Part shown: positions 4,962 to 10,794 of the stretch, piece after piece
Layout of the letters: every line of letters starts with the position of its first letter
Numbering within the stretch: position 1 is the first letter of the stretch
Source: Clostridia bacterium
GTDB taxonomy: Bacteria; Bacillota_A; Clostridia; UMGS1810
Reading direction: 5' to 3'
NCBI GenBank assembly: GCA_017437345.1
Contig: JAFSBJ010000052.1
Location: 1 to 11,173, forward strand
DNA: 11,173 nt
Position numbers and translations under genes: made by a program
The notes under the pieces: model-generated
Told to the model about the DNA's origin: nothing
Databases searched by the model: none
Seen by the model: the letters and a program-made list of their open reading frames with translations, nothing else

Positions 4962-5936
4962 ATGGAATATTCAATTCATACCGACCTTGCAATAGAAGCG
5001 AGTGCTGTTGAAAATCTGTCGAATAAAAGCAAAACTAATAGCGGAATAAGCTCAGATACCTTTACCAAAAACGATATTACAATAACTGAAGTTAATATAA
5101 CAAATGAAAATGGCGCAAAGGCTGTTGGAAAGCCTATTGGAAAATACATTACCCTTGAGGTTCCAAAGCTTAGAGATGACATAACCGAGGTTTTTGACAA
5201 CACTCAAAAAGCTCTTACGGATGAGCTTAAAAAAATCATTGATCTTGATTCTATCCACACAGTTCTCGTTGTTGGTCTTGGCAACAGATTTGTTACCCCC
5301 GACGCTCTTGGACCAAAGGTTATAGACAAGCTCCTTGTCACAAGGCATTTATATGATATTCTTCCTGAGGATATAACAAAAGAAATGCACTCTCTATGCG
5401 CTGTGGCACCGGGAGTGCTGGGAATAACCGGGATAGAAACCGGGGAAATAATCAAGGGAGTATCCGACAGGATTAAGCCTGATGTTATTATTGCAATTGA
5501 TGCTCTGGCATCAAGAAAAACCTCAAGAATCAGCACCACATTTCAGATTGCAGACACCGGCATTATTCCCGGTTCGGGAATAGGCAACAAAAGATATGCA
5601 CTCAACAAGGAAACAATGGGGGTTCCTGTTATTGCAATAGGGGTGCCGACGGTTATCGAGGCTGCTGCTGTTGCAAATGATGCAATAGATATGCTTATTG
5701 AGGCTGTTAAGGAAAGCTGCGACAAGAATTCGGAAATGTATAAATCGGTTGATACCTTTGATAACGAAAAAAGGTATGATTTGATATCGGAGCTTCTTAT
5801 TCCATCAGGGAGCGACCTTATTGTGACGCCAAAAGAGGTTGACAGCATAATTGACGAGGTATCGGGAATAATTGCCGACAGCATCAATGAAGCAATAAAT
5901 GGCAAGACAGCAAAAAAACTAGGAAAGATTATCTGA
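4962..5936 (+). CDS. gpr: Germination protease Gpr (peptidase family A25)
   Basis: Gpr degrades small acid-soluble spore proteins when a spore germinates. It is made in the forespore as a zymogen. Length is 324 residues, a little shorter than the roughly 370 of Bacillus. Strong motifs are YSIHTDLAIEA (3-13), GLGNRFVTPDALGP (105-118), PGVLGITGIETGEI (150-163), IAIDALASR (177-185), DTGIIPGSGIGNKR (198-211) and GVPVIAIGVPTVIEA (220-234). Asp114 and Asp180 sit 66 apart, as do the essential Asp127 and Asp193 of the B. megaterium enzyme. By analogy the zymogen is cut between Asp8 and Leu9, giving a propeptide of 8 residues against about 15 in Bacillus. AGGAGA lies 5 bases before the ATG. It is single, divergent from msmX and convergent with the SLH gene. 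Confidence 0.97.
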   Translation: MEYSIHTDLAIEASAVENLSNKSKTNSGISSDTFTKNDITITEVNITNENGAKAVGKPIGKYITLEVPKLRDDITEVFDNTQKALTDELKKIIDLDSIHTVLVVGLGNRFVTPDALGPKVIDKLLVTRHLYDILPEDITKEMHSLCAVAPGVLGITGIETGEIIKGVSDRIKPDVIIAIDALASRKTSRISTTFQIADTGIIPGSGIGNKRYALNKETMGVPVIAIGVPTVIEAAAVANDAIDMLIEAVKESCDKNSEMYKSVDTFDNEKRYDLISELLIPSGSDLIVTPKEVDSIIDEVSGIIADSINEAINGKTAKKLGKII

Positions 5937-6167: not shown

Positions 6168-8909
6168 TTATCTAGCAACACGAACGCTGTGTGAAATGAT
6201 ATCAGATACAACGCCATTTTCGAGGATTACGAGAATAGCATTAGATTTGTTATCTTCGCCTTTAACATCAACATCGTTAGAAGCCATCCAGTCACCAGCT
6301 ACGATAGAAGTCTTGTTGTTAGCTCTGTAGTAGTAGGTGTAAGCGTTGGTGGAACCTTTAACAGTTACCATTGTTCCATCGCTGTGGATCTGAATGTTTG
6401 TGCCATTGCTTGTTGTTTTGATATCAACGATTTCAGCAACGAGGATCTGGAGATCATCTTCTGCGTTGATTTCTTCAGCAGCAGAGTTAGCAATGTTCCA
6501 GCTGTTAGCTGTGATATCAGCAACTTTAGCTATAGATGTAGCAATACCATTGCCATCATCAGCAAGCATGATAACATCACCCTGAACTAAGTCAAGACCA
6601 GCAGGTGTACCAGCAGGTTCAACTGTTGTGTCAGCTGTGATTGTTACTTCTTTGAGTGTGTCGTCGCCAGCTGTGTAGTATCTAACTTTCCAAGCATCAT
6701 CATCGTTGAGTGTTACAGTGTTAACACTGTCAACAATAGCGATATCCTGAGCCCAGTCAATAGCACCTTTACCATCAAGAACTACAAAACCGTCATATTC
6801 GCCGTCTGCATTCTGAATGAGGTGACCAGCGTATTCACCTTCATGAACAAGACTTGAAAGTGTTGTAACGAAAGCATTGTCCATATCATCACTTACGAGG
6901 TTGAATACTACAACATCATCTGTGAGAAGTTTGTTATCGATAGCCATTGAATTTTCATTGTATTCTTTGAGAGTACCGATAGAACCAACAGAAGCTGTTG
7001 TTACAGGGCTGATAAGTCTGATTTTACCATTACCATCAAGTTTGTAGGTAACGATTCTGCTTGTAGCATTGTTTGTTTTGAACTGAGTTGTAGCGTTAGG
7101 ACCAGCAGTAGCAACACCGGAGAGGAATCCGAGGCTTGCAGCTGAATCTGCTTTGTTTACAGAAACAGTAGCATCGGAACCAGCTATACCAATGTTCCAT
7201 GTGTCTTTTACATCGTATGTTTCAACTTTGCCTTCTTTTGTGAGAAGTTTAATCTGCCAACCTGTTGAGAAACCAGTGTTGTTCTGAGCCATTTCGAGAA
7301 CATATGCATAGTTGGAAGCAACAGATGCATCGATTTCAGAAGCAAAGATTTTACCGGTTTTTGTGAGGAAGTAGATACCTTCATCATTTACTTTTGGAGA
7401 AGAAGCACCCTGTGCTAATTCATATTCAACACCATCAACATAAACACCGTCAGTACCAAGTTCTGTTACAGTACCTGTTACAGCGTTCTGACCAAGGTTG
7501 ATGAATTCACACCAGCTAAAGCCTGATTTAGCGCCGCCATCTGTAATATAAGCAACTACATCGCCTTCAGCAAAGTCAGCAAGAGTAATTTCTTCGCCGT
7601 CTTTGTTTACGATTGAGTTAGAAACTGTTTCGTCTTCGAAATCGAAAGCGAATTTACCAGGAACATTTTTAAGAGTAAATCTGTCTCTGTCAGCTTCAAC
7701 AGTATCAATGATACCATAGTTGTAATCTTTAACGATTACCATATCATACTGGCTGTTGCCATTGTTTTCGATAACTTTGATTTCAGCATCTGCAGAAACT
7801 GCACCACTCATGATTTCAGCGGAGCTTGAAACAACATTGTTCAAATAAACAACAGGAGCACCGTTGAGTTTGAGGTTAGTTGTTTTTGTAGCTGTAGCTG
7901 TTTCATAGTATTTGAGGTCTGTGTTATTGAATGTATCAATATCAGCTTTGTCAAGTTCTACAACTGCACTGTCTTCACCAGCCATGATAGCGATGATTTC
8001 CCATTTACCGGATTTAACTTCTTTAGCATAGATTTCAGAAGCCATACCGAAGTAAGGTTCAGCATTTACGCCTTCAGCAAGTTTGAGTGTGTAAAGGTTT
8101 TCAACTGTAGATAATGTGTCAGCATCATCATAATCATACCAACCATCATTGTCATAGTTGTTGTTTACTGTGTAGTCGATTTCACCAACATTGGTACCAC
8201 CGATGATAGCTGTAGCTGTTACAACACCACCGAGTTTAGCAACATCAAGACCTGTGAGGAGAGTTGTATATTTTGTACCATTGTTACCATCCTGGATTTT
8301 GAATTCAACATTTGTACCAAAACCAGTCTGAGCCATCATAGGAATATCGAGAGCGTTGTATGTGAGGTGAGCAACTACGCCTCTGTTAGCAGCTGCAGCA
8401 TCTGCAGGAGCGTTAACGCCTTCTGTTAAACCATATGTGTTAGCAACTACGAGGTAACCTGTGGGGTAACCACCCTTCTGAGAAGCCATGGGTTCATAAC
8501 CAAGAGCTACAACGAGCATTTTAACAGCCTGTTCGTAGGTTACGTTATCTTCGGGACCGAAGTTACCGTCGCCATAACCGTTAACGATGCCCTGACCAGC
8601 AGCAAGGTTAATGTAACCAGCAGCCCAGTGATCAGCAGGAACGTCTGCGAACTGAGTAGCACCTTTGGCAGGATTTCCGAGACCTAAAGCACGACATACA
8701 ACTGTAGCAAATTCTGCTCTTGTGATGTCTTTTTCAGGACCGAAAGTGCCATCTTCGTATCCATTGAGGATACTGAGTGATGATAATGTCTGTACGGCTG
8801 TGTATACATCGCTATCTTCAGCAACATCTGAGAAAGAAGCGAAGGATACTGTGCCGAGCACCATTGTTAATGCAACAACGAGTGCAAGAACTTTTTTGAG
8901 ATTTTTCAT
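6168..8909 (-). CDS. S-layer homology (SLH) domain surface protein
   Basis: A 913-residue secreted protein. Residues 1-24 are a signal peptide (basic KNLKK, a hydrophobic core, then SFA with likely cleavage before SFSDV). Three SLH repeats follow: about 26-76 (FSDV..GYEDGTFGPE..ITRAEFA), 87-138 (FADVPADHW..GYGDGNFGPEDNVTYEQA) and a weak third at 146-192. SLH repeats bind pyruvylated secondary wall polymer. The remaining 720 residues match no domain I know; they are rich in Val, Thr, Asp and Asn, look like beta structure, and include an acidic stretch (about 249-264, NNNYDNDGWYDYDDAD) that may bind calcium. Only repeat 1 keeps the TRAE anchor motif. ATG8909 is chosen because GGGAGG is 11 bases before it; an in-frame TTG at 8918 is only 2 bases from that site. 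A strong promoter and structured leader suggest abundant expression, as for an S-layer protein. Confidence 0.9.
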   Translation of the reverse strand: MKNLKKVLALVVALTMVLGTVSFASFSDVAEDSDVYTAVQTLSSLSILNGYEDGTFGPEKDITRAEFATVVCRALGLGNPAKGATQFADVPADHWAAGYINLAAGQGIVNGYGDGNFGPEDNVTYEQAVKMLVVALGYEPMASQKGGYPTGYLVVANTYGLTEGVNAPADAAAANRGVVAHLTYNALDIPMMAQTGFGTNVEFKIQDGNNGTKYTTLLTGLDVAKLGGVVTATAIIGGTNVGEIDYTVNNNYDNDGWYDYDDADTLSTVENLYTLKLAEGVNAEPYFGMASEIYAKEVKSGKWEIIAIMAGEDSAVVELDKADIDTFNNTDLKYYETATATKTTNLKLNGAPVVYLNNVVSSSAEIMSGAVSADAEIKVIENNGNSQYDMVIVKDYNYGIIDTVEADRDRFTLKNVPGKFAFDFEDETVSNSIVNKDGEEITLADFAEGDVVAYITDGGAKSGFSWCEFINLGQNAVTGTVTELGTDGVYVDGVEYELAQGASSPKVNDEGIYFLTKTGKIFASEIDASVASNYAYVLEMAQNNTGFSTGWQIKLLTKEGKVETYDVKDTWNIGIAGSDATVSVNKADSAASLGFLSGVATAGPNATTQFKTNNATSRIVTYKLDGNGKIRLISPVTTASVGSIGTLKEYNENSMAIDNKLLTDDVVVFNLVSDDMDNAFVTTLSSLVHEGEYAGHLIQNADGEYDGFVVLDGKGAIDWAQDIAIVDSVNTVTLNDDDAWKVRYYTAGDDTLKEVTITADTTVEPAGTPAGLDLVQGDVIMLADDGNGIATSIAKVADITANSWNIANSAAEEINAEDDLQILVAEIVDIKTTSNGTNIQIHSDGTMVTVKGSTNAYTYYYRANNKTSIVAGDWMASNDVDVKGEDNKSNAILVILENGVVSDIISHSVRVAR

Positions 8910-8920
8910 AATTCTCAAGT

Positions 8921-9201: not shown

Positions 9202-10794
9202 TTATTCTATTATAGTTTTAATGAAATCTGCAAAGAGGGGGTGTGCACGGTTGGGGCGGGATTTGAATTCAGGATTATACTGAGTTCCCACAAACCATTT
9301 GTGATTAGGAATTTCAATTATTTCTGCAACACCATCTGCAGCCACACCGCTTAACTTAAGACCTGCTTCTTCAAATTTTGAAACATAATCTTTATTTATC
9401 TGATAGCGATGACGGTGACGCTCAGACACAGTTTCTTCATTATATATATTATATGCTCTGCTGCCCTTTTGGATATTTATTTCTTTTCCGCCAAGACGCA
9501 TAGGCGCAACAGAATCACCTGTTTTTTTACATTCGGGAATAATATTTACTATAGCATTTGTAGCGTCTTCTTTCTGTTCGGTGCTGTAGGCATCGGAAAG
9601 ACCTAATACATTTCTTGCAAATTCAACTGCTGCCATCTGCATGCCCATGCCTATTCCGAAGAATGGAACATTATTTCTTCTTGCATAGCCTGCGGCAAGA
9701 ACCATACCCTCGGTTCCTCTTTCGCCATAGCCTGCAGGAACGATAAGAGCATCGCAATCGGAAAGATTTGCTTCAAGGTTATCTTCAGTAAGGCCTTCGG
9801 AATCTATCCATTTTATTTCAACATCTGTGTCGTTCTCAATGCCTGCATGTTTGAGAGCTTCAACAACACTAAGGTATGCATCAAATAGAGCAACATATTT
9901 TCCAACAAGACCAACCTTAACGGATTTTGAAAGGTGGGTGGCTCTATAGACCATATCTTTCCATTCAGTAAGGTCAGGTTCTTCTTTTGTGAGCCCCAGT
10001 TTTTCGCAGGCTACCTTACCAAGACCTGCTTCTTCAAGCATAAGGGGAACTTCATAAAGAATTGAAGCATCAAGATTTTCAATGACTGCATCGGGACGAA
10101 GGTTACAAAAGAGAGCTGTTTTTGATTTAAATTCGTCGCTTAATGGAATTTCACTGCGGCACACAACCACATCCGACTGAATACCAAAGCCAAGAAGCTC
10201 TTTAACACTATGCTGGGTGGGCTTACTTTTCTGCTCGCCCGACATGCTAAGATAAGGAACTAAAGTAACATGGATATAGAGGCAGTTTTCCTTGCCGACA
10301 TCTGTGGATACCTGACGGATTGCTTCGATATAGGGAAGGCCTTCCATGTCGCCCACTGTACCGCCGATTTCGGTGATAACAATATCAGCACCACTCTGAG
10401 CTCCAACAGAAAAGATTTTGCTCTTTATTTCGTTGGTTACATGAGGAATAACCTGAACTGTGCCTCCGCCAAAAGCGCCCTGACGCTCACGGGTGAGCAG
10501 CGACCAGTATATTCTGCCTGAGGTAACATCGGAATCTATATTGAGATTTTCATCGATAAATCTTTCGTAGTGACCAAGGTCTAAGTCGGCTTCGCCTCCA
10601 TCTTCGGTTACAAAAACCTCACCGTGCTGAAGAGGACTCATATTTGCCGGGTCAACATTGAGATAAGGGTCGAATTTCTGCATGGTAACTTTATAGCCAC
10701 GAGCTTTAAGGAGTCTGCCAAGTGAAGCCGCTGTGATACCCTTTCCCAATCCGGATACAACGCCACCTGTTACAAAAATGTATTTAACTGCCAT
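9202..10794 (-). CDS. pyrG: CTP synthase with a degenerate glutaminase domain
   Basis: CTP synthase turns UTP, ATP and a nitrogen donor into CTP. The 530-residue length is normal. The synthetase domain (about 1-270) is intact: [11 protein letters not shown]-loop (10-19), [20 protein letters not shown] (42-61), EIGGTVGD (142-149) and [11 protein letters not shown] (190-200). The C-terminal glutaminase domain (about 293-530) keeps GERGTEG, STE (404-406), MRLGG and RHRHRYQIN, but the nucleophile motif GICLGMQ reads GIGMGMQ, with Gly382 in place of Cys (E. coli Cys379). The catalytic His is Asn507 in QYNPEF (E. coli His515); Glu509 remains. PGG is PAG. Glutamine use should be lost, leaving ammonia-dependent activity. 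The frame is open throughout with no frameshift. It is a single gene with its own promoter; AGGTG precedes the ATG by about 7 bases. Confidence 0.95.

Follow-up and report, generated by a model that had tools for sequence, protein, structure and literature searches.

A clostridial CTP synthase that has lost its glutaminase triad, with parallel losses in CarA and GuaA of other genomes that suggest nucleotide synthesis from free ammonia

The synthesis of CTP, GMP and carbamoyl phosphate in bacteria is, by textbook account, glutamine-dependent and proceeds with channelled ammonia. CTP synthases can also use exogenous NH3, whose entry GTP is thought to plug, and the G352P variant of the Escherichia coli enzyme has undetectable glutamine-dependent activity and almost full activity with NH4Cl (excerpt of PMC9138612). 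GMP synthetases can use external ammonia in vitro (excerpt of PMC10526850). Mammalian CPS1 keeps an ancestral class I glutaminase-like domain that is inactive, with Ser for Cys in the human protein, and takes its ammonia from the surrounding solution (excerpt of PMC4655335). The single-domain NadE of type N is an ammonia-using synthetase that has relatives with a glutaminase, and shows a mosaic distribution and horizontal transfer (excerpt of PMC3376133), and archaeal PurF' proteins without the N-terminal Cys are amidotransferase homologues suggested, as a putative role, to be ammonia-dependent (excerpt of PMC3261824).

Here, we describe a CTP synthase (PyrG) encoded in 11,173 nucleotides of a Clostridia bacterium (the window; GenBank assembly GCA_017437345.1, contig JAFSBJ010000052.1). 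It resembles the glutamine-hydrolysing PyrG of E. coli (1s1m; families TIGR00337 and NF003792) in two-domain architecture, synthetase motifs and 48-49% identity in the structural match, and differs from it by Gly for Cys379, Asn for His515, Ala for Gly351, Pro for Thr438 and Asn for Thr51. Its sequence suggests that, like CPS1, it has kept a glutaminase-like domain that no longer works and draws on ammonia from solution, although CPS1 is another enzyme with another reaction, serves ammonia detoxification and is switched by N-acetylglutamate (according to an abstract on CPS1). NadE type N lacks a glutaminase domain altogether, in a form proposed to be ancestral, whereas the domain of the window PyrG is present and apparently secondarily dead. 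The archaeal PurF' proteins, unlike the window PyrG, belong to a different amidotransferase class and are found beside an intact PurF. The G352P variant has the properties that we predict for the window PyrG, but it is engineered, altered at a single residue, and still has its nucleophile.

The pyrG reading frame (Table 1) is complete, as the original prediction had it, and free of internal stops, and its product scores far above the curated cut-offs for CTP synthases: 771.5 bits against NF003792 (NCBIfam CTP synthase; cut-off 308), 745.1 bits against TIGR00337 (cut-off 462.75) and 399.9 bits against CTP_synth_N (PF06418; cut-off 26.1), with a further Pfam match of 111.4 bits to the class I GATase domain. 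Having both the synthetase N-terminal domain and a class I GATase, with conserved synthetase segments the same as those of aligned relatives, it is a member of the PyrG family. The stand-alone GATase-like family NF004836 (CTP synthase C-terminal region-related (seleno)protein) was considered and rejected, as the score of 154.3 bits lies below the cut-off of 260 and the synthetase domain is present. An AF2 model built from a 70-row alignment has a pLDDT of 88.5 and a pTM of 0.88, and its best PDB match is E. coli CTP synthase (TM 0.94). The glutaminase domain is thus, in the model, dead but folded. It has kept the fold and lost the nucleophile beside a conserved synthetase, as in a pseudo-glutaminase of the CPS1 kind.

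Table 1. Features of pyrG in the window; positions count from the first nucleotide of the window, and residues replaced are numbered as in E. coli PyrG.
Feature	Position	Strand	Basis
pyrG, CTP synthase with dead glutaminase triad, 530 aa	9202..10794	-	ORF and profile matches
Synthetase domain, residues 4-268, conserved, with L2 and L4 loop changes inside	9991..10785	-	
Class I glutaminase domain, residues 303-526, fold kept in model, triad lost	9217..9888	-	
Codon 382 (GGC), Gly replacing nucleophile Cys379	9649..9651	-	Codon read and alignment
Codon 507 (AAT), Asn replacing catalytic His515	9274..9276	-	Codon read and alignment
Codon 509 (GAA), triad Glu517 kept	9268..9270	-	
Codon 354 (GCA), Ala replacing Gly351, beside Gly352 of the oxyanion/L11 junction	9733..9735	-	
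Codon 356, Tyr replacing Phe353 (Phe in 327/327 intact PyrGs)	9727..9729	-	
Codon 383, Met replacing Leu380	9646..9648	-	
Codon 431, Pro replacing Thr438 (GTP-activation motif GGTMRLG, here VAPMRLG)	9502..9504	-	
Codon 51, Asn replacing Thr51 (L2 loop, GTP cleft)	10642..10644	-	
Codon 109, Gly replacing Leu109 (L4 loop); also in triad-intact PyrGs, not diagnostic	10468..10470	-	

The two central claims of the original prediction, a glutaminase domain with Gly382 for the nucleophile and Asn507 for the catalytic histidine, hold on re-reading of the codons and their coordinates, and each change is, as claimed, one base from the expected TGC or CAT. A selenocysteine or other recoding at residue 382 is ruled out, the codon being GGC. 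In alignment with 1s1m, Gly382 falls on Cys379 and Asn507 on His515 (E. coli triad numbering as named in the excerpt of PMC9138612), and the place of the Cys-His-Glu triad is taken by Gly, Asn and Glu in all 13 rows of the clade to which the window PyrG belongs. The elements said to remain (Glu509, Glu406, MRLGG and RHRHRY) are all present, as is R433, and R356, R440, R468 and R470 (E. coli numbers) are kept, the last two at window positions 461 and 463. The change of PGG to PAG is likewise confirmed as Ala354; Gly352 has its role at the oxyanion/L11 junction (PMC9138612, excerpt), and a comparable role of the neighbouring Gly351 is our inference. The synthetase domain had been called canonical, which its conserved motifs bear out in part. 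It is not wholly so, because further changes were found that the original prediction had not listed (T51N, L109G, F356Y, L383M and T431P), T51N and L109G being in this domain. Thr438, equivalent to Thr431 of Lactococcus lactis, functions in GTP activation, and Thr51, Thr438 and the L11 lid beside G351-F353 are tied to GTP-dependent activation (both in the excerpt of PMC9138612), so that Asn51 and VAPMRLG take the place of a GTP-activation signature.

We searched 5.8 billion proteins, among which 7,993 relatives were scored. The first 12 of the best 120 clusters, one of them (P0001) the window's own protein, are full length (530-532 aa) at 85-100% identity and have both changes, in the motifs GIGMGMQ and Q[YF]NPEF; of the remaining 108, 103 have Cys and His, three Cys and Asn, and two Ser and His. 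Close relatives with an intact triad were looked for, and among the best 120 of the 7,993 the nearest intact PyrGs are 67-68% identical. The closest locus in a metagenome-assembled genome (L001, from yak colon by its record title) encodes a 95% identical PyrG that shares both changes, with identical codons at 354, 382, 383, 431 and 507. T51, F353 and T438 are invariant in 327 triad-intact PyrGs, in which G351 and L380 each vary a single time. The clade, with the window counted among its 13 rows, has T51N, F353Y, T438P and L380M in 13 of 13, and has G351 changed in 12 (Ala in 11, Ser in one) and kept as Gly in one. Glycine at position 109, which had been entertained as an opened ammonia gate and marker of adaptation, was dropped because 61 of the 327 intact PyrGs also have it.

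The window and L001 genes are separated by a dS of 0.77 and a dN of 0.037 (dN/dS 0.0475 overall; 0.0155 for the synthetase and 0.0985 for the glutaminase domain). Among 90 PyrG pairs of comparable divergence, this pair included, its glutaminase omega is 3rd highest, its synthetase omega 75th highest and its glutaminase/synthetase dN ratio 6th. Mean identity within the clade is 95.9% for the synthetase and 78.3% for the glutaminase domain, against 93.9% and 86.1% in eight intact sister sequences. Purifying selection still clearly acts on the glutaminase domain, if less tightly; strong relaxation was considered and set aside, as the effect is only moderate against the 90 pairs and the dN ratio is high without being unique. 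With both changes fixed across the clade and purifying selection acting, the settled pseudo-glutaminase of the original prediction is upheld over a sequencing error.

Broken triads also occur in other PyrGs. We assembled 363 rows from protein searches with three queries, whose results are not a random sample because all three queries were odd sequences, and from 109 loci (79 of one set of 80 and 30 of another). The triad (Cys/His/Glu positions) reads C/H/E in 327 rows, G/N/E in 13, S/H/E in nine, C/N/E in seven and G/H/E in seven; in the set of 80 loci, 79 are intact and one (L001) is G/N. In all seven rows of the C/N type (group B) Asp replaces G351, Thr replaces the GTP lever Arg356, and Glu403 is lost. 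When 391 genomes of the class were scanned for the Gly motif, nine matched, two with PyrGs and seven with unrelated proteins; the two were that of G001, the genome containing L001, and a further type in G186 with GIGLGMQ and LFQPEF (Gly/Gln), which sits on a long branch with unsure tree placement. In synthetase-domain trees, group A (G/N, the window's) and group B each form one clade with support of 100, and parsimony requires five or six changes between intact and lost, of which the starred branches force three. Two independent losses in A and B are not claimed, as a single clade of A and B survives an AU test (p 0.48), and since both have His changed to Asn they may share the His loss.

Besides PyrG, two other nucleotide amidotransferases carry a class I triad glutaminase, CarA/CarB and GuaA. 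Across 24 chosen genomes (G001-G016, G186 and seven others) CarB (PF02787) was found in 22, CarA (PF00988) in 10 and the GMP synthetase C-terminal domain (PF00958) in 16. CarB occurs without CarA in 12 of the 24 (G001-G007, G009, G012, G033, G051 and G186). The carB cluster of G012 has no carA and includes, by Pfam, a dihydroorotate dehydrogenase, an OMP decarboxylase, a phosphoribosyltransferase and a gene of the aspartate-carbamoyltransferase type; carB adjoins dihydroorotase in G001 and G033. GuaA is a short frame without the GATase in G001, G002, G004, G007, G009, G010, G011, G033 and G186, and as a second copy in G025. On the 512-position GMP synthase model the short proteins span positions 197-512 in G001 (326 aa), 192-512 in G186 (320 aa) and 187-512 in G184.

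CarA triads were read by alignment in 13 copies from 12 genomes. They are intact in G008 (one copy), G014, G025, G036, G040 (one of two copies read), G050 and G279, and dead in G010, G011, G013, G023, G184 and the second copy of G008, each dead copy having Gly or Ser for Cys and at least one further triad residue (His and/or Glu) lost. Dead-triad CarA loci in six genomes are L248:4306-5388, L333, L334, L335, L337 and L343. Full-length GuaA with Cys and His is present in G008, G014, G025, G036, G040, G050 and G279. The states of CarA and GuaA agree in 18 of the 18 genomes read for both, seven having both intact in at least one copy and 11 having neither (hypergeometric p 3e-5, without phylogenetic correction; many of the 11 come from a single family-like clade). 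Mixed cases exist, with intact and short GuaA in G025 and intact and dead CarA in G008.

The short GuaAs have a history of their own. A clade of GATase-less GMP synthetases with the conserved N-terminus RPxxMxRIxT spans 10 genomes (support 100/100) and includes L206:3373-4353, L208:1640-2641 and L308:8578-9549; the short GuaA of G186 falls outside it, on weak support. The copies of G001 and G184 are 78% identical, against 53, 56 and 46% for CarB, PurL and HisH, which suggests horizontal transfer of the short gene. G051 (L194) has a full-length GuaA that keeps Cys and has Tyr for His (WFYPE), has CarB without CarA, and has a PyrG with an intact triad and PSG beside the oxyanion hole; it is a possible intermediate state.

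Wherever PyrG is dead and both partners could be read (G001, G184 and G186), the two other glutaminases are lost as well, in three of three genomes, although their completeness is not stated and single absences could be gaps. G001 (1.4 Mb) has CarB, no CarA (PF00988) and only the synthetase half of GuaA; G184 (1.5 Mb, PyrG Cys to Ser) has a CarA of 449.5 bits with GVGLGHQ and VQFDPE, and again only the synthetase half of GuaA; and G186 (2.0 Mb) has CarB without CarA and a short GuaA. Of seven genomes with an intact PyrG in which both partners were read, six keep an intact copy of both and G051 of neither (p 0.03). A further 15 genomes with intact PyrG have GATase frames sized for GuaA (513-560 aa) and CarA (355-413 aa), by length only, and G015 (group B) is unscorable, as both CarB and GMP_synt_C are absent. 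The losses are not perfectly linked, given G051 and the dead second CarA of G008. The window's own genome presumably shares the CarA and GuaA state of G001.

In G184, nearly all of which was read in tiles, the loss is selective, because HisH, PurL/PurQ, PurF and GlmS all retain their nucleophiles; scanning these tiles for a glutamine synthetase motif gave no match, from which we draw no conclusion. G001 has one CTP_synth_N match and two PF00117 matches, PyrG itself and a HisH (222 bits, cut-off 105) with GICLGMQ, FHPE and both Cys and His in place, and the PurL adjoining pyrG on the G001 contig carries the PurQ-type GICNGFQ. A second pyrG and a separate class I glutaminase, for which the original prediction proposed a search, were thus sought in this relative and neither was found. 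HisH and PurQ nucleophiles are kept in two of the three dead-PyrG genomes, where read (G001 and G184); this retention is not general, because the only PF00117 match of G186 is PyrG itself and it has no HisH match.

An rpoB tree of 57 genomes places G001 in a clade of 16 (G001-G016), of which 13 have no PyrG match, G008 has an intact PyrG, and G001 and G015 have two dead types. With rpoB detected in 59 of the 60 genomes (in 57 above the cut-off), incompleteness does not by itself account for the missing PyrGs, although pyrG may have dropped out of assemblies beside a neighbouring SLH gene. Most of the 13 keep carB, and 123 of the 391 genomes of the class gave no PyrG match in a search with P0107. 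The PyrG-less relatives may obtain CTP by salvage or through an unknown enzyme, or may lack pyrG in their assemblies only, by dropout. The large SLH-domain protein lies at 6168-8918 (-) in the window, and one also adjoins dead-triad pyrG in G015, G184 and G186 (L216:2545-5424, L217:8930-12103 and L249:2523-5507). Elsewhere in the window are the germination protease Gpr (4962-5936, +), pointing to a spore-forming lineage, and tandem short chromate-transporter-like genes (1002-2143, -).

We consider it very probable that the window PyrG is a functional CTP synthase that uses NH3 only, and that it belongs to a wider shift in which nucleotide synthesis has turned from glutamine to free ammonia. 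From the observed residues, their conservation and selection, the gene absences and amputations and their concordance, we infer its catalytic behaviour, the ammonia route, the loss of GTP activation and the ecological cause. The enzyme would aminate UTP with free ammonia alone. With neither Cys nor His the glutamyl-thioester could not form, even as the glutaminase fold is kept; the oxyanion strand and GTP-coupling loops have drifted, and GTP should not be required as activator any more. Ammonia would pass into the enzyme by the vestibule plugged by GTP in ordinary CTP synthases and, by way of the synthetase end of the tunnel, arrive at 4-phospho-UTP. Glutamine would have been abandoned for CarA/CarB, GuaA and PyrG in this lineage and in at least two more genomes of the class whose PyrGs are broken in other ways, with glutamine still used by other enzymes (HisH, and PurL/PurQ where read). 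Because little of the total ammonia is unprotonated NH3 at neutral pH, such an enzyme would need a high ammonia pool or a better affinity. The original prediction of a CTP synthase fed by free ammonia is thereby supported indirectly, and is strengthened because the glutaminases of CarA and GuaA were lost in parallel; the ammonia-rich gut niche that it proposed finds its sole basis in one record title, that of the yak colon.

If cytidine were salvaged and CTP synthesis dispensable in this family, PyrG might instead be a decaying enzyme adrift. The many PyrG-less genomes of the rpoB clade, rpoB itself being found almost throughout, speak for this, as does a glutaminase domain less constrained than in most intact pairs; the synthetase domain is, however, among the more constrained (75th of 90 counted from the least), the 12 clusters are full length with the same two replacements, and the changes concentrate on catalytic and GTP-coupling residues, which makes decay improbable. 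An artefact of sequencing, assembly or annotation would be conceivable in sequences from metagenome-type contigs, but the same residues recur in 12 protein clusters drawn from more than one source collection, as well as in a MAG copy at a dS of 0.77, and we give the idea almost no credence. Nor does a separate glutaminase that feeds the dead domain in trans seem credible: archaeal GMP synthetase does have stand-alone glutaminase subunits (excerpt of PMC10526850), yet PyrG and HisH account for all PF00117 matches of G001, PyrG for that of G186, and the loss spans three different enzymes.

The domain may also have been kept for a regulatory or scaffolding role, in filament contacts or in sensing glutamine or GTP without hydrolysis, much as the original prediction suggested in its alternative of a domain reused for regulation. 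The domain is full length and retains Glu406, R433 and RHRHRY, and its omega of 0.099 is far below 1; moreover, GuaA has lost its GATase half in the same lineages while PyrG keeps its own, which suggests some continuing need for the domain in PyrG. Several positions of GTP action or next to the oxyanion hole are altered, however, and a need for the tunnel or for tetramer packing explains retention equally well, so that we think such a role rather unlikely. It and the NH3-only reading are not mutually exclusive.

Taken more widely, it is likely, with less assurance than for the enzyme itself, that several Clostridia lineages convergently gave up glutamine for free ammonia in making carbamoyl phosphate (carB without carA, or a dead CarA), GMP (a GATase-less GuaA, apparently in part horizontally spread) and CTP (a dead-glutaminase PyrG), with nucleophiles kept at the histidine and FGAM steps and, in one genome, the PRA and glucosamine steps, and with many relatives seemingly without PyrG obtaining CTP otherwise. 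Among the papers listed in searches of the open PMC library, none describes in its title or abstract a natural PyrG without its nucleophile or a joint loss in CarA, GuaA and PyrG. The automatic label 'glutamine-hydrolysing' would be wrong for whole clades, because NCBIfam models so named score these proteins above their cut-offs. If the reading is true, a natural NH3-only PyrG would allow the contributions of GTP, tunnel and glutaminase domain to be told apart in a wild-type protein, with no need for mutagenesis, and the concerted loss in CarA, GuaA and PyrG would mean that environmental ammonia can reshape core nucleotide metabolism and leave a bacterium dependent on the ammonia around it.
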